38,144 nucleotides of DNA, from assembly GCA_947460345.1 (NCBI GenBank), contig CANHGM010000026.1, positions 1-38,144 on the forward strand. The letters run 5' to 3'. The notes beneath the pieces are model-generated. The model saw nothing but the letters and a program-made list of their open reading frames with translations, ran no database searches and had not been told where the DNA came from. The position numbers and the translations under genes were made by a program. Positions 27,042 through 38,144 of this stretch are shown one piece after another. Source of the stretch: Bacteroidota bacterium (GTDB lineage: Bacteria > Bacteroidota > Bacteroidia > UKL13-3). Every line of letters begins with the position of its first letter. Position 1 is the first letter of the stretch.

Positions 27042-28004
27042 ATGAATCAAAATAAATTACTTAAATTTATAATGCTAATTATTGTATTAAATAGTTGTAA
27101 GCGAACTACGCCAAATGATACAAACGTAAGCAACAACCAGCCTTTAGCTGTAGCTTCAAAAACGTTGGTGGGGCCACTATTAGAATGTAAAGTTTATAAA
27201 CTTTTTAATGGATATTCAAGCAGCGATGACTTTGAAGCAAGTGGGGTATTTGCCAAAGACGGAGAATTCAATTTAGTATTTGATAATAGATACAAAATTG
27301 GTAAAATCAACAAAGCATTGATTCAAAATAGTAGTTTGAATATATTTATAGGGAGCGGATCTGGGAGTTCGAATTTTGAAGGAATAACATTTGACCCATA
27401 TAATACCCCAAATTGGTATGTGGTTGAAGAAAGCGTAAAAAACGGCAATGTTGCATATAATCCTAGAATAAGAGAATATGATAAAACTCTTAACTATCAA
27501 AGCAGTCAATGGTGTGATTATAATTTTAATTCGACAAATAACAACAAGGCTTTTGAAGGAGTTGCTTATGTAAGAAGGAACAACCAGGATTATATATTGA
27601 GTATAGTTGAAGGGACTGGGAAAATTGTAGTTAACCAGCAAAATGGCAACATATGGAAAGTAATTACAGAATTTAGTTTACCTGTAACTTTTAAAGATTA
27701 TTCAGATATAGCTATATTTGGAAATAAATTAGCTGTCACTAGCCAAGAAGACGCACAAATATGGATAGGAAATCTTCATCAAACACTTTGGACATATACA
27801 GGATCTTGGACTGTATATGATTTTCCTAAAGGCGATAAAAATGGAACTGTTGGTGCAGGGAACCTAACACTTTATGGCAATATAGAAGGTGTTTCATTTA
27901 TAAACGATAGTACCATTGTTACTTGTTCTGACAAAGCATCTAGTTCTCAACCTAGTTATCAAAATTATAAAGACCAATCAGTACAAATTTTCAGAATCAG
28001 ATAG
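27042..28004 (+). CDS. Putative beta-propeller lipoprotein (SdiA-regulated / phytase-like type)
   Basis: A 320-residue lipoprotein (lipobox LNSC, Cys about residue 19). The mature part has repeated motifs: 'FEASGVFAKDGEFNLVFDN', 'FEGITFDPYNTPNWYVVEES', 'NNKAFEGVAYVRRNNQDYILSIVEG', 'FKDYSDIAIFGNKLAVTSQED' and 'NIEGVSFINDSTIVTCSDK'. The recurring 'F/I-E-G-[IV]-[TAS]-[FY]' units followed by 'D..Y.V.E' are what I expect from SdiA-regulated or esterase-like-phytase beta-propellers. It probably faces the periplasm or surface; enzymatic activity is not established. A second, shorter propeller of similar style is at 31414-32121. The 232-base intergenic region upstream is divergent from wecE. Confidence 0.7.
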   Translation: MNQNKLLKFIMLIIVLNSCKRTTPNDTNVSNNQPLAVASKTLVGPLLECKVYKLFNGYSSSDDFEASGVFAKDGEFNLVFDNRYKIGKINKALIQNSSLNIFIGSGSGSSNFEGITFDPYNTPNWYVVEESVKNGNVAYNPRIREYDKTLNYQSSQWCDYNFNSTNNNKAFEGVAYVRRNNQDYILSIVEGTGKIVVNQQNGNIWKVITEFSLPVTFKDYSDIAIFGNKLAVTSQEDAQIWIGNLHQTLWTYTGSWTVYDFPKGDKNGTVGAGNLTLYGNIEGVSFINDSTIVTCSDKASSSQPSYQNYKDQSVQIFRIR

Positions 28005-28765: not shown

Positions 28766-29815
28766 TTAATACTTCCATATGTAACTATTTTCATTGTAAA
28801 TATAATTACTATATTTATTAAAATTATGAATTGTGGCTAATTTAATTGCATCATCAACAATAGATTCCGTTTCATTTAAAAAAGAAACATCAATTACATT
28901 CCCATATTCGAGCCAGCCTCTTACACGATTATAAAAGTTCCGATTGATTTTGGCTACCACAGTTACCCCCATTTTTTTCATAGAAATGGCATTGCACAAT
29001 TGTTCATACTGTCCTAAAATAGGAATGCTCATCACTTTTTTATTTAGGTACATTGCTTCGGCAGGCCCTTCAAAACCGCCACCGGTTATTAACCCAGAAG
29101 AGCTAGCTAAGCTTTTTAGAAAAAGATTATTTTCAATAGGCAATACTTTTATATGATTTACTTTATAAGGAGTTTTGCAATATTTAGAAAATATATGCCA
29201 TTCAAAATCACTTATATTCAGAAAATGTTTCATCAGAAAATCATCATGATAAGCAGGTAAATAAACAGATATATGATTTTTTTCAGTAACATCTAGATTT
29301 CTAACTTCAGTTCTAATGATTGGTTTTTTGATAAAGGTATCATATTCATTAAAATGTAAACCAATAGCATCAGAAGACGGAGCGTAATTTTTAAAAATAA
29401 GTTCAGGTATAGCTTGCTTTTCTTGTGGACGAGGAGTTAATTTACTTAAAAAAGCAGATTGGTGGCTCATGGCAATACAAGGTTTGTTTCTGATTTTGCA
29501 AGCCCAAGCAGATAAGGGTTCAAAATCATTTAATACTACATCATAATCATATACAGGAAAAGTGAGAATGTCTTTTAAAAAATGAATAGGTTTTAGTTGC
29601 TTTACTGACTTTATATAGTCGATACTGCCTTGTTTGCCATTGACAAAGCTCAATCCATGTTTTTTATATTTAATGATATAAGGCAAAGAAACATCAGCAT
29701 TGTTACCACTTACTAACAAATCTACTTCGCCATGTTGTAGCAAGTGAGGAATTATTTCGCGAGCTCTGCTCAGATGACCGTTACCCGTAGCTTGAATAGC
29801 ATATAAAATTTTCAT
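28766..29815 (-). CDS. Glycosyltransferase, GT-B fold (Glyco_trans_1_3 / MurG-like)
   Basis: A 349-residue protein. The N-terminus 'MKILYAIQATGNGHLSRAREI' is the Gly-rich first loop of a GT-B nucleotide-sugar glycosyltransferase ('G-x-G-H-x-x-R'). The C-terminal half has 'ASSSGLITGGGFEGPAEAMYLNKKVMSIPILGQYEQLCNA', the donor-site pattern of this family (GGG-x-x-x-x-E-A, then P-x-x-x-Q-x-x-N). No transmembrane segment. It probably makes a glycolipid or envelope glycan; the acceptor is unknown. Its gene directly follows the metallophosphoesterase gene (29818-30657) with 2 bases between stop and start, so the two form an operon and are likely to act in one envelope-lipid pathway. Confidence 0.85.
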   Translation of the reverse strand: MKILYAIQATGNGHLSRAREIIPHLLQHGEVDLLVSGNNADVSLPYIIKYKKHGLSFVNGKQGSIDYIKSVKQLKPIHFLKDILTFPVYDYDVVLNDFEPLSAWACKIRNKPCIAMSHQSAFLSKLTPRPQEKQAIPELIFKNYAPSSDAIGLHFNEYDTFIKKPIIRTEVRNLDVTEKNHISVYLPAYHDDFLMKHFLNISDFEWHIFSKYCKTPYKVNHIKVLPIENNLFLKSLASSSGLITGGGFEGPAEAMYLNKKVMSIPILGQYEQLCNAISMKKMGVTVVAKINRNFYNRVRGWLEYGNVIDVSFLNETESIVDDAIKLATIHNFNKYSNYIYNENSYIWKY

Positions 29816-29817
29816 AT

Positions 29818-30657
29818 CTAACTTGGATATATAATTGATTGAAATAAACTTTCGAAACTTGGAGCCATAGACTCTATTTCTTCCAATTCTTTAACAACAT
29901 TCAATTCATTAAATTTATACAAATCCCATTTACCATTGTTCCATTCTAGGGCAGTTAGATTTTCGACCCAATCGCCACTGTTTAAATAGGTAACGTTATC
30001 TGTTTTCTTAATAATTGGTTGATGAATATGGCCACAAATCACATATTCGTAATTACGTTCTTTAGCTATGCTGATTGCAGTTTCTTCAAAATCAGAAATA
30101 AAGCTCACAGCACCTTTCACTCCATTTTTAATTTTTTGACTTAGTGAAATTTTTCCTTTACCTAGCTTTTTAGAAATATAGTTAACAATGCTATTTATCA
30201 CTATTAAAGTATCGTAGCCTTTAGCTCCTAGTTTGGCTAGCCATTTCGAATGTTTCATGGTTACATCAAATACATCCCCATGGAAAAACCAAGCTTTTTT
30301 ACCATCAAGTTCTAAAACAAGTTTGTTAGCCAAATGCAAGTTGCCAAGAGAAGTATCACAAAATTTTCGAAGTGTTTCGTCGTGGTTACCGGTTAGATAA
30401 TATATAGTAGTTCCATCGGCCATCATTTGAAGTATTCTTTTAAAAACCTTGGTATGGCTAGTAGGCCAATACCTTTTACTATATTGCCAAAAATCTATAA
30501 TATCTCCGTTTAGTACAAGAGTTTTAGGGTGTATACTTTTTAAGTATTGATTGAGTTCTGAAGCATGACAACCATAGGTGCCTAAATGCACATCAGAAAT
30601 AACCACCAAATCTAAGAGTCTTTTGTTTGAATGCATGACCTTTGTTTGGACACGCAA
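29818..30657 (-). CDS. Metallophosphoesterase, UDP-2,3-diacylglucosamine diphosphatase-like
   Basis: A 279-residue calcineurin-like phosphoesterase with all five metal-site motifs: 'SDVHLGTYG' (about 20), 'LNGDIIDFW' (about 50), 'GNHDE' (about 93), 'FFHGDVFD' (about 128) and 'CGHIHQP' (about 205). The layout matches the COG2908 / LpxH-like group, often annotated as UDP-2,3-diacylglucosamine hydrolase in lipid A synthesis. Classical LpxH has Gly-Asn-Arg-Asp where this has Gly-Asn-His-Asp, so the lipid A role is likely but not certain. It contains an insertion (about 140-195) that is Lys/Gly/Ser-rich. First gene of an operon with the glycosyltransferase. Confidence 0.85.
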   Translation of the reverse strand: MRVQTKVMHSNKRLLDLVVISDVHLGTYGCHASELNQYLKSIHPKTLVLNGDIIDFWQYSKRYWPTSHTKVFKRILQMMADGTTIYYLTGNHDETLRKFCDTSLGNLHLANKLVLELDGKKAWFFHGDVFDVTMKHSKWLAKLGAKGYDTLIVINSIVNYISKKLGKGKISLSQKIKNGVKGAVSFISDFEETAISIAKERNYEYVICGHIHQPIIKKTDNVTYLNSGDWVENLTALEWNNGKWDLYKFNELNVVKELEEIESMAPSFESLFQSIIYPS

Positions 30658-30827
30658 ATTGAATATGTCATTTTAACTTAGTGTAATCAAATAGAAGTAA
30701 TATACTTAAGTTTAGGTTAACTTAATGTATATTTAGATTTTTAGATTCAATAGAAACACAACTAAAAATTACAATTCCGCAATTATATGGAAACACAACC
30801 TTAACATTAGACTGTGTATTTTGTAAA

Positions 30828-31406
30828 ATGAAATATATTTTTTATATACTTATTTTTATTGCTATTGCAAGCTGTACAAAATTTAGAGATTTGCCATCAA
30901 ACTCTAAAGTAATTATAGCACCAGATACTTTAAGTTATGGTTCATTATTAATCAATGAATATACCCCTAAAAGCAAAGTAGATACTAATGAGTTTGGCAT
31001 TTTAGGAAAATGGTTTGAACTATACAATCCAGGCACCAAAAACATTGAAATAGATACCAATTTTTATTTTACTGACACACTTGCTTGGCCTGACAAATTC
31101 CATGTAACCAAGACAGATATAAAACAAATAGTTCCTGCAAAAGGATTCTTGGTAGTTTGGTCAGATAACTGTGATACAATAAATGGAGGAAAACTAATTC
31201 ATACCAATTTCAGTTTAAACTCTGCAGGAGGAGGCATAGGTATATATATTAAAAATGCTCAAAGAAATTTTGTTGCCATAGATACACTAAACTATCCTGA
31301 CTATAGCTTACTACCTAAAGGTACGCCAATAGGCAGATTCCCTGATGGTACTGTGGGATTTAAACAACTTTCATTGAGAACACCTGGAGCTAAAAATCAA
31401 TTATAA
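30828..31406 (+). CDS. Lamin-tail-domain lipoprotein
   Basis: A 192-residue lipoprotein (lipobox IASC, Cys about residue 16). Almost the whole mature part is a lamin-tail (LTD) domain: 'LLINEYTPKS', 'GKWFELYNPGTKNIEIDTNFYFTD', 'IVPAKGFLVVWSDN', 'IHTNFSLNSAGGGIGIY', 'DTLNYPDYSLLPKG', 'IGRFPDGT' and the closing 'TPGAKN'. LTDs are Ig-like surface modules, often joined to secreted nucleases, phosphatases or structural proteins in Bacteroidota; here the domain stands alone. First of three tightly packed genes: the next start is 7 bases after its stop. No catalytic residues seen. Confidence 0.88.
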   Translation: MKYIFYILIFIAIASCTKFRDLPSNSKVIIAPDTLSYGSLLINEYTPKSKVDTNEFGILGKWFELYNPGTKNIEIDTNFYFTDTLAWPDKFHVTKTDIKQIVPAKGFLVVWSDNCDTINGGKLIHTNFSLNSAGGGIGIYIKNAQRNFVAIDTLNYPDYSLLPKGTPIGRFPDGTVGFKQLSLRTPGAKNQL

Positions 31407-31413
31407 TATTATT

Positions 31414-32121
31414 TTGAAATTTACAATAACCATAATTAGTTTAGTACTTGTTTCATTTACTAGTACTACCTATTTAAAATCAATAAAAAAATATAAGTTA
31501 AAAATTGAAGAGCCTTCTGATATATCTCTATCAACAGATGGCAAATCATTTTATATTGTAAGTGATAAAGGGAGCTTATATAAAACAGATTTAGAAGGCA
31601 AAACAATCACCAAATCAAACCTAGTTGGAACTGACTTTGAAGCTGTTTTTGCTAAAGATAACAAAGTATATGTTGTTGATGAAAGATACAGAAAAATATA
31701 TACTTTAAATGAGAATACATTAACTCAAGAGTCTGCAAAAACTATCCCATATAGTGGGGCTAGAAACAGTGCTTATGAAGGAATTTGTTGGAATAAAGCA
31801 AAAAAAAGATTTGTGTTGGCAATTGAGAAAAGTCCTGTGATGTTGTATGAATTAGATGAGAATTTAAACGTGGTCAACGAGATTGATTTTAAATCTATTA
31901 CTGATATCTCATCAATTACATATGCAGATGGATTTTTATGGATTTTAAGTGAAGAAGACCATTGCCTTGTAAAAGCAGATGCCAATACATATCAACCAAT
32001 AAAAAAATACAATATAAATATAGTTGGAGCAGAAGGGGTAGCATTTGACAACAACAAACAATTGTATATTACAAGTGACGGTATGGGATTAATTTATAAA
32101 TACAACACAATTAATGAGTAA
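31414..32121 (+). CDS. SdiA-regulated-type beta-propeller protein, TTG start
   Basis: A 235-residue secreted protein starting at TTG, the only start that gives a signal peptide (KFTITIISLVLVSFTST). The mature part has 'IEEPSDISLSTDGKSFYIVSDKGSLYKTD', 'DFEAVFAKDNKVYVVDE', 'AYEGICWNKAKKRFVLAIEKS', 'DISSITYADGFLWILSEED' and 'GAEGVAFDNNKQLYITSDG'. These match the 'S-D-I/E-G-[IV]' blade pattern of the SdiA-regulated family (PF06977 as I recall it). Function of the family is poorly known. It is 7 bases after the LTD lipoprotein, and its last 8 bases overlap the start of the porin gene, so translation of the three is probably coupled. Confidence 0.82.
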   Translation: MKFTITIISLVLVSFTSTTYLKSIKKYKLKIEEPSDISLSTDGKSFYIVSDKGSLYKTDLEGKTITKSNLVGTDFEAVFAKDNKVYVVDERYRKIYTLNENTLTQESAKTIPYSGARNSAYEGICWNKAKKRFVLAIEKSPVMLYELDENLNVVNEIDFKSITDISSITYADGFLWILSEEDHCLVKADANTYQPIKKYNINIVGAEGVAFDNNKQLYITSDGMGLIYKYNTINE

Positions 32122-33292
32122 AATATATACCATCTTTGGACTGTTCTTTATACTGTTAGCTTCTAAAGTAACTGGGCAGTTTACTATTACCGGTCCAAAA
32201 AATAGCATAGAAATTTCAGGTTTGATTTCATTTGATTATAATTATAGATTTCTGTCAAATCCTGGTAACGAACCGGACTATAAGAAAAATAAATTTGAGC
32301 TTGGTAATGCCCGTTTTAAAATAGAAGGGAGAACAGGTTTGCACTATGAATATAATTTACAATTAGACCTTTCTCGATTGGGATACACCGATGTTGTAGG
32401 AGAGTTCCCGGCATTGCTTGATGCAAGTTTTATATATAAAAGTAAATTAGTAGATATTGCAGGCGGTTATCAAAAAGTACCATATTCAAGAAGTTCGTTG
32501 GTGCCATTTCAATATCAACCTATGTGGCAAAGAGCCGAAATATCTAGGGGCTATATGTTTTCGAGAAGAGATGTAGGAGTAACTTTATCAAAAGAAATGT
32601 GGAATGATAGAATTGCTTTATATGCAGGAGCTTATTCAGGCCAAGGTGAATATATAATGACTTCAATTACCGAAGGAGACAATGATAAAAATGGAACATT
32701 AGAATATATAGCTAGAGCTGAAGTAAACTATCCATATAAAATTAAATACAGAGATGTATATGATACACACCATTCATCTATTCCTTCGATAAGTTTGGGT
32801 GTAAATGGCAGGTATGTAAATAGAACAAAATCGTTACCCTATGGTACTACAGATTTTGACGTTAAACTTATATCAGGGAAAAAGACTACTTATGGATTAG
32901 ACTTAGCAACCCAATACAAAGGGTTTTCAGGATTATTTGAAATCCATCAAATGAAGATAGAACCAACAGACCCAACTGATATAACAAATTTCTTATTAAG
33001 CAAACAAACTACTTACTTTTATGCAGGTGGAACAGTAGTGCAATTGGCATATTATAGCAAAAAATTAAAATCAGGAATATTGGCTAGATATGATGAATTG
33101 ATACCAAATGATTTAAGAAGTTCAACCTATAAAGTTCAAAACATTTCATTATGTTATAATCTTTTATTGAATGGATATAAATCTATGCTAAGAGTTCAAT
33201 ATTGGTATAGAATAAACAATGACATACAAAGCAGTATTCCACAAAAATTTAAAGATGACCAAATTAGAATTGGTTGGCAATATTCTTTTTAA
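32114..33292 (+). CDS. Phosphate-selective-porin-like (OprP/OprO type) outer-membrane protein
   Basis: A 392-residue protein with a signal peptide (residues 1-21, ending VTGQ). The barrel-like mature part has 'SIEISGLISFDYNYRF', 'FELGNARFKIEGRTGLHYEYNLQLDLSR', 'DASFIYKSKLVDIAGGYQKVPYSR', 'SRRDVGVTLSKE' and a closing strand 'QIRIGWQYSF' ending in Phe. The 'F-x-x-x-x-A-R-x-x-x-x-G ... Y-x-x-x-x-x-D' and 'G-x-x-K-x-P-F/Y-S' patterns match the phosphate-selective porin O/P family. Substrate is not proven by sequence. Overlaps the preceding gene by 8 bases and is the last of the LTD-propeller-porin cluster. A short AT-rich inverted repeat lies 66 bases downstream (33359-33377); I see no firm terminator. 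Confidence 0.83.
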   Translation: MSKIYTIFGLFFILLASKVTGQFTITGPKNSIEISGLISFDYNYRFLSNPGNEPDYKKNKFELGNARFKIEGRTGLHYEYNLQLDLSRLGYTDVVGEFPALLDASFIYKSKLVDIAGGYQKVPYSRSSLVPFQYQPMWQRAEISRGYMFSRRDVGVTLSKEMWNDRIALYAGAYSGQGEYIMTSITEGDNDKNGTLEYIARAEVNYPYKIKYRDVYDTHHSSIPSISLGVNGRYVNRTKSLPYGTTDFDVKLISGKKTTYGLDLATQYKGFSGLFEIHQMKIEPTDPTDITNFLLSKQTTYFYAGGTVVQLAYYSKKLKSGILARYDELIPNDLRSSTYKVQNISLCYNLLLNGYKSMLRVQYWYRINNDIQSSIPQKFKDDQIRIGWQYSF

Positions 33293-33358
33293 TAAAACGC
33301 TTTTATAATTCATATTTTATTTGGGTTTATTCAACAATAAAACTACAACAAACTAAGG

Positions 33359-33377
33359 ATTTCTTAATATAAGAAAT
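33359..33377. repeat. Short inverted repeat before the giant surface-protein gene
   Basis: ATTTCTT-AATAT-AAGAAAT, a 7-bp stem with a 5-base loop between the porin gene and the ATG at 33415. It could be a weak terminator or operator; the lack of a T-run after it makes termination doubtful. Confidence 0.3.
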
Positions 33378-33414
33378 TTAATCTTGCTACATATTTAAAT
33401 ATATATATATACAC

Positions 33415-36400
33415 ATGAAACAAAAATTCTATTTTGTAAGGCTCGTCACAGCATTTATATTGCTGTTACTTGTAGCCGAAGGCCGTTCACAAGGCTACTT
33501 AAGAGATGACTCCGTAACCACTTACACTTCTGGAGTAGTGCTTACTGAATTTTCTGGTTTTGGAAATCCCGCATTTGATTTTAATGGCGATGGATCAATA
33601 AGTTCAACAACAGATGAATACATTGAATGGACTAATACTGCAAATGTTGCCATTAATATAGGTGGTTGGAAATTTGATGACGGATCAGCCTTAGGTCATA
33701 CCGTTCCGTCTAATACTATATTAGGACCAGGCAAAAAAGTAATTATGTTTATGAATACCACATCAGTGCCTTCAAGTTTCAATGGAGGTTTTGGTAATTA
33801 TGTATGTGCAACCGGAAATGCAAGCAATGGGATTAACAATAGTGGAGACGCTATTGGAGTAGCTAACGCATCTGGAAGATACACTTATATACTATGGAAA
33901 ACAGCAGCTGGTACATATGGAACTATAAATGCTTTTATCACTTCAGGAAATAGTTTAGGTGCTAATATAGTTCCACAAGTTGTAATAGCTACTTATACTG
34001 GAGCTGTTTTATGCAATGGAGCTGGAGGCTTATCAAACCATTCAGCTTTAACTGGAACTTATAATTGGAGTAATAGCTCAAATACAGTAACCAACCCAAC
34101 AGGAACACCGGGTAGACATACAGATGGCTATTCCATTGAAACACCTGCTCCTATCTCGGCTCCGGCTATTACATTCGGAACAATTACAGCAAACACAATT
34201 CCTATATCTGCTTTAACCAATACACAAAAAGGACATAGAAGAATTATTGTTATTAAATCTGGGTCTGCTGTTACATTTACACCATTAGACAGTGTTACAT
34301 ATACAGGAATCAGTACAAATTTTAATACAGCAACAGACCAAGGAAGTGGAAACAAAATAGTGATGGATGATACTACAACTGTTTCGCCAATAACAGTAAC
34401 AGGTTTAAGTCCGAGTACTACTTATCATTTTGCAGTATATGAGTATAATGGCAATGCACCATCAAGAGACCGTAATTATCGCACAGCTTCAGGTGTTGCT
34501 ATTAACAATACTTCAACTTCAGCTTCTTCTTCACCTACAGTAAATTTATCAGTAAGTGCTACATCAGGAACAGAAGCAGCAACAACAGTTATAACCGTAA
34601 CTGCAACAGCTTCATCTGCTGTAGCTTCAAGTGAGACAGTAGATATTGGTGTTTCAGGAACAGGAATTACATCAGGTGACTATACATTGAGTAATACACA
34701 AATAACTATTACAAGCGGAAATACAGTAGGAACTGTAACTTTTACCGTTAAAAACGATACGTTAGGAGAAGGAAGTGAGACAGCCATTTTAGCAATCAGC
34801 AATCCTTCATCAGGCTTAACATTAGGTTCCACAGTTCAAAAAAATATATCAATAACAGACAATGAACCATCATTATCTATTAGTTTTTCAGCAGGATCGG
34901 CAACTGAAGGCGGGTCAGTTATTAGTGTTTTTGGAACTTTAACTGATACTATATTAACTTCTATACAAAGTGCTAATTTGGCAATAAGCGGAACAGGTGT
35001 TACAGTTGGTGATTATAGCTTAAGTAAATCAACTTTTTCATTTGATAGGGGCGACGTTTCAGATACTATATTTTTAACAGTAACTGATGACAATGTTCGT
35101 GAGTCAGCTGAAACTTTTATTCATACAATTTCAGCATTAAGTTCAAGAATTTGGGCAAGCAGCACTTCTGCAAATTTATTAGTGAATGACAATGATGATG
35201 CTATATCAATTACTGCATTAAACACTTCTTTACCAGCAGATACTTTTGACAATGTAATAGCTTCACCAAGTAGCCAAATGTATAGAGGTTGGTACTTTAA
35301 AGAAAATGGTAGTAATGCAAACACAAGTTATGATACCACCAGTGGCGTTTCAACCACAGGTAATATGTTTAGTTTAGGAAGTGCATTATCACAAGAAAGA
35401 GCATTAGGATCTTTAAACTCTAGTGCGTTAGATACAACTTATTTTGGAGCAAAATATATAAACAACTCAGGAAGTAATTTAAATACTTTAATCATTTCTT
35501 ATGTAGGAGAAATGTGGAGATATCAAGGCTCTGCAGATAAGTTAGATTTTCAATACAGTTTAAATGCGACTTCAGTTTCAGATGCTTTAGCTACATGGAC
35601 AGATGCAAATGCATTAGACTTTTCTAACCCAAATACTACTTCTGGCAGATTGGATGGAAATAGCCCAGCAAATAGAACTACTTTCACCAATATAGCAGTA
35701 GCTTTAACAAACAGTGTTGCCAATGGCAATTCAATTTGGGTTCGTTTTAGAGATGTAGATATCCCAGGAAGTGATGCTATATTAGGAGTTGACAGTTTTG
35801 TTTTAAAAGCAAAAAATGCTGTTACAGTTGTATATTATTCAAACGCTTCTGGAGATTTAAATCAAACTGCCACTTGGGGAATAAACACAGATGGTAGTGG
35901 AGCGAATCCAACAAACTTTACAGATGATGACCAAATATTTGTAATACAAAACAATACCAATGCAACCATTGCAGCCAATTGGACTGTATCTGGAATTAAT
36001 TCAAAAGTAGTATGTGGAGATAGTTCAAATGCAATCACATTTACTGTTCCTTCATCTTTTGTATTCAATGGAACTGTTGATGTTAAATACAATGCTACTT
36101 TAAAACTTCAAAACACTACATTGCCTTCATTTGGCGTATTAGAATCAGGTTCAACAGTAGAATATAACCAAGCATCTAATGTGACTGTGCTTAATTCTGC
36201 CAACTATAGCAATCTAACGTTATCTGGTGCTGGAACAAAAGCTATTAGTGCTGGAACTACAGTAGTTGGCAACAATATCAACTTGAATAATGCTAGCATT
36301 AGTTTTAGTGGTGTTACAACGATGACTTTAGGTGGTAACTTCACTGTTACTGGTACTTTAACTCAATCAGATACCACACAAACTTGGGGTATTACAACAG

Positions 36401-38144
36401 TAGGTAATGGTAACCAAACTATAAGTGGAAATAACAACAAATTATATATCTTCAGATTGGTTTCTACTAAAACTGCTGGAAGCCTAAGCTTTAGCAATGC
36501 TGTTGTAAGAATGACTGAAGACTATCGTTTGAACTTTACTAGTACTGCAACTTTCAATGATGGTGGAAATGAATTGTGGTGTGGTGATGACTTCCAAGCA
36601 GATGGATTATCTTCTGCATATACTTTAACAGGAACTGTAGTGATGCGTCAAAATGCTGCCACTGCAAACTTTGAACAAAATACAGCAGGAGGAACTATAG
36701 TAGCTCAATTGAACAATATCGTTTGGAACACTAGCGGTGCAGGTTCAGGTAGTTTTGGTGGTTCTAGCCCAGTATATATAAATGGAAACATGACCATCAC
36801 TAATGTTAACTCAGGATTAATAGCTTTAGGTTCAAACAAATATTTTGTAAAAGGAAATTGGATAAATAACAGAACAACAGATGTTATAACAGAGGCAACT
36901 TCTAAAGTTTATTTTGTTGGAACATCTGCTCAAACCATTACATCAGCTTTTTCAAATGGTGAAATTTTTAACGATATCATTATAGACAATACCAATGGTG
37001 TAAATACGGCTACAAGAGTTACTGCAAATGATTCATTAATACTAACTAATGGACAATTAAATACAAGCTCAATTGTCATTATACCTTCAACTGGATTTGT
37101 ATCTCGCACCAATGGTTGGGTTAATGGCCAATTGCGTAAAAACTTCGCAACTGGAGTAAGTGTTGCTAATATATATGAAATTGGAGATGCATCAGCATAT
37201 ACTCCAGTAAATATTACTTTGAATAATGTAACCGTAAATGGAAACTTAACCATAGGAGCAAATCAAACTAACATTTCAGGAACTTTATATGCTAGCGTAT
37301 GTGTTGACACCAACAAAACATTAGACCGTCTTTGGACATTAGCTAAAACAGGAGGGTTAACTTTTGCAAACTATAATGGAACATTTACCTATACAGGAAA
37401 TGATACTGCCAATGGTGGAGCATCAAGCCAACTTCTTCAAGCATATATATACGATGGCGTAACAGTTGAAAGATCAACTATGGGAGCATTAACAAATACT
37501 TCATTCACAATCACATCAGATACTTTAACTGGGACTTTATATATAGGTGAAAACAGAAACATCACAGCTTCATTCACTAAATCAACCTCAACCCCATGTT
37601 TGTCAGGCAACGTAACACTTACTTATACAGGTAGTGGCGTAGGTTCTTCTAACTACTCATGGTCTTTATCAGGTGCTTCAATAGTTTCAGGTTCAGGCAG
37701 TGGACCCTATACCATCAATTGGGCTTCCATAGGTGTTAAGCCATTGTCGTTAACTGTTACAGGTTTAGGATGTGCTTCTTCTACTTCATATGATACTGTT
37801 ACCGTATTTGCTAATGGATGGGTAGGTTCAGTAGATACACTTTGGACTAGAGCTGCTAACTGGTGTAGTGGAACTGTTCCAACATCGGCATCAAATATTG
37901 TTATTCCAGCTGGTTTAACTAATTATCCGACAGTACATGCTTCAGCTAATTGTGGAGATTTAACTATAGCTTCAGGTGCAAGTCTTAAAATAGTTAGTGG
38001 TGGTAACCTAACGGTAAATGGAGCCTTTGCTAATACAGGAACATTTAACCATATCGGGGGCTATTTAAATTTAGCAGCAACTACTAATATTCCAGTGGGT
38101 AACTATTTTGCTTTAAGACTTAACAGTGCTTCAGCGGCTACTTA
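33415..38144 (+). CDS. Giant multidomain surface protein, partial at the window edge
   Basis: An uninterrupted frame of 1576 codons running off the window; I read it through and found no stop. Signal peptide about 1-27 (ending GRSQG). A lamin-tail domain (about 38-240: 'VVLTEFSGFGNPAFDFNGDG', 'YIEWTNTANVAINIGGWKF', 'GPGKKVIMFMN') is followed by an Fn3-like domain (about 244-362, 'LSPSTTYHFAVYEYNG'). Two Calx-beta-like domains (about 374-485 and 486-595) each end in a 'D-N-[ED]/D-N-D' motif. A jelly-roll-like segment (about 600-800) and long Asn/Thr/Gly-rich beta repeats (about 800-1400, 'NLTLSGAGTKAI', 'GNFTVTGTL') come next. A 'W-x-x-x-x-N-W-x-x-G-x-V-P' module (about 1470 on) follows. Low Lys/Cys content and this architecture are typical of type IX-secreted adhesins or surface enzymes. 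The C-terminal sorting domain would lie outside the window. Confidence 0.93.
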   Translation, partial: MKQKFYFVRLVTAFILLLLVAEGRSQGYLRDDSVTTYTSGVVLTEFSGFGNPAFDFNGDGSISSTTDEYIEWTNTANVAINIGGWKFDDGSALGHTVPSNTILGPGKKVIMFMNTTSVPSSFNGGFGNYVCATGNASNGINNSGDAIGVANASGRYTYILWKTAAGTYGTINAFITSGNSLGANIVPQVVIATYTGAVLCNGAGGLSNHSALTGTYNWSNSSNTVTNPTGTPGRHTDGYSIETPAPISAPAITFGTITANTIPISALTNTQKGHRRIIVIKSGSAVTFTPLDSVTYTGISTNFNTATDQGSGNKIVMDDTTTVSPITVTGLSPSTTYHFAVYEYNGNAPSRDRNYRTASGVAINNTSTSASSSPTVNLSVSATSGTEAATTVITVTATASSAVASSETVDIGVSGTGITSGDYTLSNTQITITSGNTVGTVTFTVKNDTLGEGSETAILAISNPSSGLTLGSTVQKNISITDNEPSLSISFSAGSATEGGSVISVFGTLTDTILTSIQSANLAISGTGVTVGDYSLSKSTFSFDRGDVSDTIFLTVTDDNVRESAETFIHTISALSSRIWASSTSANLLVNDNDDAISITALNTSLPADTFDNVIASPSSQMYRGWYFKENGSNANTSYDTTSGVSTTGNMFSLGSALSQERALGSLNSSALDTTYFGAKYINNSGSNLNTLIISYVGEMWRYQGSADKLDFQYSLNATSVSDALATWTDANALDFSNPNTTSGRLDGNSPANRTTFTNIAVALTNSVANGNSIWVRFRDVDIPGSDAILGVDSFVLKAKNAVTVVYYSNASGDLNQTATWGINTDGSGANPTNFTDDDQIFVIQNNTNATIAANWTVSGINSKVVCGDSSNAITFTVPSSFVFNGTVDVKYNATLKLQNTTLPSFGVLESGSTVEYNQASNVTVLNSANYSNLTLSGAGTKAISAGTTVVGNNINLNNASISFSGVTTMTLGGNFTVTGTLTQSDTTQTWGITTVGNGNQTISGNNNKLYIFRLVSTKTAGSLSFSNAVVRMTEDYRLNFTSTATFNDGGNELWCGDDFQADGLSSAYTLTGTVVMRQNAATANFEQNTAGGTIVAQLNNIVWNTSGAGSGSFGGSSPVYINGNMTITNVNSGLIALGSNKYFVKGNWINNRTTDVITEATSKVYFVGTSAQTITSAFSNGEIFNDIIIDNTNGVNTATRVTANDSLILTNGQLNTSSIVIIPSTGFVSRTNGWVNGQLRKNFATGVSVANIYEIGDASAYTPVNITLNNVTVNGNLTIGANQTNISGTLYASVCVDTNKTLDRLWTLAKTGGLTFANYNGTFTYTGNDTANGGASSQLLQAYIYDGVTVERSTMGALTNTSFTITSDTLTGTLYIGENRNITASFTKSTSTPCLSGNVTLTYTGSGVGSSNYSWSLSGASIVSGSGSGPYTINWASIGVKPLSLTVTGLGCASSTSYDTVTVFANGWVGSVDTLWTRAANWCSGTVPTSASNIVIPAGLTNYPTVHASANCGDLTIASGASLKIVSGGNLTVNGAFANTGTFNHIGGYLNLAATTNIPVGNYFALRLNSASAAT

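Follow-up and report, generated by a model that had tools for sequence, protein, structure and literature searches.

A conserved lamin-tail lipoprotein, propeller and porin cassette of Bacteroidota with a possible role in phosphorus acquisition

Near the end of a 38,144-nucleotide stretch of Bacteroidota DNA (the window, which is one whole contig, C26), genes for a stand-alone lamin-tail (LTD) lipoprotein, an SdiA-regulated-type beta-propeller and a porin follow one another on the same strand. A first-pass annotation took them, with a giant LTD gene downstream, as a possible surface system for binding and importing phosphorylated or anionic nutrients. Do the three genes form a genuine unit, and what might that unit handle? 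To our knowledge, bacterial LTD proteins have no settled role and the propeller YjiK has no established function; a literature search on YjiK found nothing on its function. All three families are poorly understood, and a compact, strongly co-occurring cassette offers a testable partner and pathway for LTD and YjiK proteins.

A compact cassette conserved across ten families

An ORF check of the window recovered the four open frames at the coordinates of the first-pass annotation (Table 1). The packing it had described was confirmed, with 7 bp between the LTD and propeller genes and -8 bp (an overlap) between the propeller and porin genes; the start codon of the propeller gene is TTG. This tight packing is not chance, because the same genes occur in the same order in about 20 loci from 10 families.

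Table 1. Features of the cassette and its surroundings in the window (Pfam cut-offs: LTD 34.3, SdiA-regulated 21, Porin_O_P 20.9, Phytase-like 27.6 bits)
Feature	Coordinates	Strand	Evidence
Glycosyltransferase PF13528 (MJ1255 type), neighbour, paired with plcP-like gene	28766..29815	-	Pfam 105 bits
PlcP-type metallophosphoesterase, neighbour; annotated elsewhere as UDP-2,3-diacylglucosamine diphosphatase	29818..30657	-	43% to P. aeruginosa homologue, 36% to S. meliloti homologue
Divergent promoter region, plcP-like gene versus cassette, TTAAC repeats	30658..30827	.	TTAAGTTTAGGTTAACT, 11/12 matches to TTAACW-N5-TTAACW
Stand-alone LTD (lamin-tail) lipoprotein, 192 aa, AIAS/C-TKFRD, cassette gene 1	30828..31406	+	Pfam LTD 36.6 bits; lipobox Cys invariant, 18 homologues
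SdiA-regulated/YjiK-type five-bladed beta-propeller, 235 aa, Sec-type signal, no lipobox, no T9SS tail	31414..32121	+	Pfam SdiA-regulated 78.3 bits
Porin_O_P-family outer-membrane porin, 392 aa, Arg-rich loop 122-154	32114..33292	+	Pfam 32.7 bits
Giant LTD + Calx-beta protein, accessory, only in this family, incomplete at contig end	33415..38142	+	46% over 1592 aa to 2097-aa T9SS protein in G004

In a profile search, the porin clade was found in 19 of 395 genomes of the class (about 5%), from 10 families, and was sharply set apart, with scores of 237-569 bits in these genomes against 87 for the next best. A cassette-clade LTD lipoprotein (at least 182 bits) adjoins the porin in 16 of the 19, and none was found away from the porin in the 395 genomes; two of the three exceptions are contig-end losses, and G211 truly lacks the gene. 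The propeller adjoins the porin in 15 of 18 testable genomes, being missing beside it in one genus (G046, G089 and G125) and present in two copies in G140 and G363. With few exceptions the genes run LTD, propeller, porin, at spacings of -19 to +38 bp (15 loci).

These profile-based counts are partly circular because cassette members supplied the profiles; single-sequence searches avoid this. Among 58 relatives, such searches located the propeller solely in the cassettes of three genomes; the porin turned up in five, and the best LTD-lipoprotein matches adjoined it. A named genome collection held ten porin loci, at which the LTD lipoprotein adjoined in 10/10 and the propeller in 7/10; all ten are labelled MAG or uncultured, and several carry lake or pond names. 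Four control porins of the same family had no adjoining LTD lipoprotein of the cassette clade and no propeller, and a search of plasmids for relatives of the cassette porin found none. Mirror-tree correlations were 0.75 for porin-LTD, 0.58 for porin-propeller and only 0.24 for propeller-LTD; the first two values fit joint inheritance, and species relatedness alone could also give them.

The triplet, whose existence outside this strain the first-pass annotation had left to be checked, is conserved across 10 families with near-perfect co-occurrence and is not peculiar to this strain. The cassette is real and conserved. It is apparently undescribed so far; a literature search for papers that pair LTD proteins with SdiA-regulated proteins or with porins in Bacteroidetes found none.

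At the start of one contig (G016:C137, L019:93-1096), the cassette-clade porin is split over two frames, either a broken copy or a sequencing error. In G118 (L078:5961-8628), a propeller gene with no cassette porin directly follows, and overlaps at its end, a gene for a putative porin of a different family, Porin_10; the same propeller clade therefore partners a second porin family.

Location and folds of the three proteins

The lipoprotein consists of one LTD domain and a lipobox cysteine, which is invariant in 18 homologues, as is an arginine at +5. The residues after the cysteine mostly follow CxKDRx[F/I/V], and in the window protein read CTKFRD. In Bacteroidota, surface lipoproteins are marked for export by C-x-K-(D/E)2 or by a stretch of acidic residues that follows the cysteine (PMC5080379); both are absent from the window lipoprotein, and its homologues have CxKDR instead, a misfit to the surface location first assigned to it. 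The propeller, which had been called secreted, does have a signal peptide, and it ends with its last blade and has no T9SS sorting tail. These two features make a surface location doubtful, and both proteins are hence predicted most likely to face the periplasm.

The CxKDRx[F/I/V] stretch directly after the lipid anchor (30876-30893 in the window) is a striking motif common to the LTD lipoproteins, and may serve as a signal for sorting or docking. A related stand-alone LTD lipoprotein (L081:8724-10755) adjoins DUF4956 and a protein with a VTC domain (polyphosphate polymerase type), and a sister propeller lies near a VTC domain protein/DUF4956 pair in L086.

The propeller exceeds the cut-off of the Phytase-like profile (PF13449; 34.6 vs 27.6 bits), and the SdiA-regulated profile fits it far better (78.3 bits). 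Its model (pLDDT 92) has five blades and, among solved folds, comes equally close to plant-type glutaminyl cyclases and to YjiK, at Z 24-26 (25.1 for YjiK 3QQZ). Sequence comparison found similarity to YjiK (E 2.8e-17) only, and none to the glutaminyl cyclases. No phytase is among the fold matches listed, though the propeller may still be related to phytases. Conservation extends to about a dozen acidic positions, mostly where blades begin, from which we infer that the conserved acidic residues ring the central channel. A further propeller at 27042-28004, which had been linked to the system, is a lipoprotein with weak Phytase-like similarity (21.7 bits, below the cut-off). It was rejected as a part of the system: it belongs to a different family (19 bits vs 323), and no homologue of it lies near other cassette copies.

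The description of the porin as OprP-like held up. Its match to Porin_O_P (PF07396) is above the cut-off (32.7 vs 20.9 bits, profile positions 23-154 of 370), and for its model (pLDDT 84) the best Foldseek matches are OprO 4RJW and 4RJX (E 7.5e-14, TM 0.60); by profile, 4RJX matches at E 0.0068. Within loop 122-154, R140, R151 and R152 are present in 21/21 homologues, and the loop is net-positive in 18/21, which fits any anion; the charge does not fix the ligand. Pit-linked porins of the Porin_O_P family have the same general layout as the cassette porin.

Neighbouring genes and promoter repeats

The plcP-like gene and then the glycosyltransferase gene run divergently from the cassette, 170 bp off. 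The plcP-like protein matches a P. aeruginosa homologue (43% over 245 aa) with a glycosyltransferase next to it, and an S. meliloti homologue (36%) near an AHL synthase gene; by gene context, we take these to be PA3219-PA3218 and the characterised PlcP, respectively. PlcP with a glycosyltransferase acts in membrane lipid remodelling under phosphorus stress (PMC8528852, PMC4796936). A homologue of the window glycosyltransferase is also found near the cassette in L021/L060, and in L079 and L080 a related LTD lipoprotein leads an operon with plcP-like and then glycosyltransferase genes, followed in L079 by a Porin_O_P–DUF47–Pit set. At sister locus L087, DUF47, Pit, Porin_O_P, LTD lipoprotein and propeller genes lie in this order on one strand. 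Elsewhere, a Na/Pi cotransporter is 3 kb from the cassette (L073), secreted DUF5689-PLD genes lie ahead of the cassette in L066 and L067 and divergently from it in L024, and an Endonuclease_NS and a metallophosphoesterase are nearby in L021. No phosphorus gene could be recognised in the vicinity of more than half of the cassette loci. In F. johnsoniae, phosphate depletion induces PlcP and two LTD-containing nucleases, and does not induce OprP (PMC8115612). The genome of the window has a second, separate Porin_O_P directly beside Pit (C44), so the cassette porin may carry something else.

The Pit of L087 (L087:12464-14305) has a C-terminal match to a LuxR/GerE-type helix-turn-helix, an odd fusion.

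The direct repeat TTAACW-N5-TTAACW presumably resembles the Bacillus PhoP box. It reached a shuffle p of 0.05 in 8 of 17 regions before the cassette against 12 of 112 other gaps (Mann-Whitney p 6e-5), in a comparison where some loci had been seen beforehand, some came from one genus and the control gaps came from the same loci; as a Pho-like signal, this enrichment is suggestive only. The first-pass annotation had proposed looking for Pho-box-like motifs before 30828 and 33415: before 30828, the best match (TTAAGTTTAGGTTAACT) agrees at 11/12 positions and is weak (shuffle p 0.04-0.06), and before 33415, the start of the giant gene, there is no outstanding Pho-like repeat. In the gap between Pit and the other Porin_O_P of the same genome, the match is perfect. 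Genome-wide, there were 8 matches, one of them before the Pit-linked porin, versus 19 for the reversed control; because the matches are fewer than in the control, a genome-wide Pho box is not claimed here. The degenerate two-repeat pattern of E. coli-type Pho boxes gave raw counts of 0 on the + strand of the window and seven on the - strand, all of the latter outside the locus. A repeat, TTAACTTARTGTA, at 30673 and 30717 was discarded as not unusual for the window once mismatches are allowed. The phosphate idea of the first-pass annotation thus finds circumstantial support in the plcP-like/glycosyltransferase pair, the Pit/DUF47 genes of L087, the nuclease/phosphodiesterase genes and the Pho-box-like repeat.

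The giant gene (Calx-beta 40.9 bits in two stretches, LTD 37.5 bits) is truncated at the contig end, since the window is one whole contig. Its G004 relative (2097 aa) is intact and has a T9SS sorting tail; it lies beside the cassette, divergent from it, and is the sole G004 homologue of comparable score. The family is rare, with two copies in the genome of the window (C26 and C8) and one in G004, and adjacency to the cassette is common to the window and G004 only. The LTD domain that had drawn attention to this neighbour is present, but the idea of the gene as a core part of the cassette is not supported; with 28 LTD matches in the genome, a second such protein beside the first says little by itself. 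Elsewhere, T9SS-tail proteins, often with LTD, adjoin the cassette (L064, L066, L067 and L069), the L068 neighbour has LTD and no detected T9SS tail, and the L017 and L070 neighbours have a Reelin-subrepeat match. We treat the giant and the other secreted neighbours as variable accessories.

The window giant and its C8 paralogue (G000:C8:1428-4745) are 51% identical, with open frames of about 1590-1610 aa; the former stops at the contig end (38142) and the latter appears to reach the contig start. The assembly therefore probably broke at a repeat common to the two genes.

Proposed function, alternatives and known systems

We tentatively propose, at somewhat less than an even chance, that the cassette is a periplasm-facing, porin-based outer-membrane unit for phosphorus acquisition, for which we infer ligand, direction, complex formation and Pho control. 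This proposal draws on the co-occurrence of the genes, the phosphorus neighbours, the Pho-like repeat, the OprO-like fold, the net-positive loop and the acidic propeller positions. The low Porin_O_P score of the porin (32.7 bits) and propeller folds nearest to cyclases and YjiK, not phytases, count against it, as do the separate Pit-linked Porin_O_P, the many loci with no phosphorus gene close by, the weakness of the repeat at the window and its lack of genome-wide excess, and the uninduced OprP of F. johnsoniae. The porin, with its long inward loop and conserved arginines, would pass phosphate or small phosphorylated anions through the outer membrane. In the periplasm, the acidic ring of the propeller may hold Ca2+ or another cation, and the propeller would capture or hydrolyse the phospho-anion, while the LTD lipoprotein, with its anchor in the outer membrane and its body on the periplasmic side, could tether it to the porin exit. 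Free phosphate would then be imported by Pit, encoded elsewhere (C44), and cell-surface T9SS LTD proteins, plus nucleases or phosphodiesterases where present, may feed the cassette.

If phosphorus is the substrate, the cassette would be a porin-based route beside the SusCD-like phosphate systems of Bacteroidota, and would give LTD lipoproteins and SdiA-regulated (YjiK) propellers a first physiological role. Phosphorus is often growth-limiting in lakes and ponds. That the cassette is an undescribed phosphorus-scavenging system of freshwater Bacteroidota, with a porin instead of a TonB-dependent SusCD and with the acidic-ring propeller and LTD lipoprotein joined in a periplasmic complex that receives what leaves the porin, we regard as rather unlikely.

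The same parts could import another anion, such as an organic acid, sulfate or an oxyanion, with the phosphorus neighbours incidental. Most copies do lack phosphorus genes nearby, the genome already has a Pit-linked Porin_O_P, and the sole NCBIfam match of the porin, at 15.8 of 150 bits and thus far below the cut-off, is ExtI, which we take to be a Porin_O_P relative from selenite/tellurite operons. We nevertheless consider this unlikely, given that the sister-locus Pit/DUF47, the plcP-like/glycosyltransferase and the nuclease/phosphodiesterase genes point to phosphorus, and that no recurring neighbour indicates another anion. Alternatively, the cassette could be an envelope assembly or adhesion module, in which the propeller and LTD protein would act as scaffold or chaperone for T9SS surface proteins and the porin as structural partner or plug. 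T9SS-tail proteins, several with LTD, are counted beside the porin in L017, L064, L066, L067, L068 and L069, and the giant adjoins the cassette in the window and G004. These secreted neighbours differ between loci, however, whereas the porin is constant, and no T9SS machinery genes were recognised beside them, which makes such a module quite improbable. That the propeller is a glutaminyl-cyclase-type enzyme modifying exported proteins, in a cassette for protein maturation, is very improbable: its closest solved folds are such cyclases, tied with YjiK, but its sequence resembles YjiK alone and a porin partnership fits poorly.

Turning to known systems, the proposed phosphorus-acquisition cassette shares with the PUS/PusCD of Flavobacterium an outer-membrane transporter with a lipoprotein and phosphoesterases nearby, and the PUS regulon includes LTD nucleases (PMC8115612). 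PUS are TonB-dependent SusCD pairs with no porin and no SdiA-type propeller named, whereas the barrel here is a Porin_O_P and the lipoprotein an LTD protein, which places the cassette outside PUS/SusCD. The genes at 28766-30657 have the arrangement of the PlcP-Agt lipid-remodelling pair and a plcP-like sequence; they differ in that the glycosyltransferase is of the PF13528 (MJ1255) type, and the pair is a neighbour outside the cassette. With E. coli YjiK and the SdiA-regulated family (PF06977), the cassette has in common the propeller family and its conserved acidic positions, but we know of no LTD or porin partner of YjiK to report. The phosphate- and polyphosphate-selective OprP/OprO of Pseudomonas (PF07396) share the family, the best solved fold (OprO) and a long Arg-containing inward loop with the cassette porin, which differs in its identity of about 14% and in its near-constant LTD lipoprotein and propeller partners. 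Finally, the Porin_O_P–Pit(–DUF47) loci of Bacteroidota, such as C44 of the same genome and L079, have the porin family and Pho-like TTAAC repeats before the porin in common with the window cassette, which has no Pit/DUF47 and is a second locus in its genome; in sister locus L087, Pit and Porin_O_P stand together with LTD and propeller genes.
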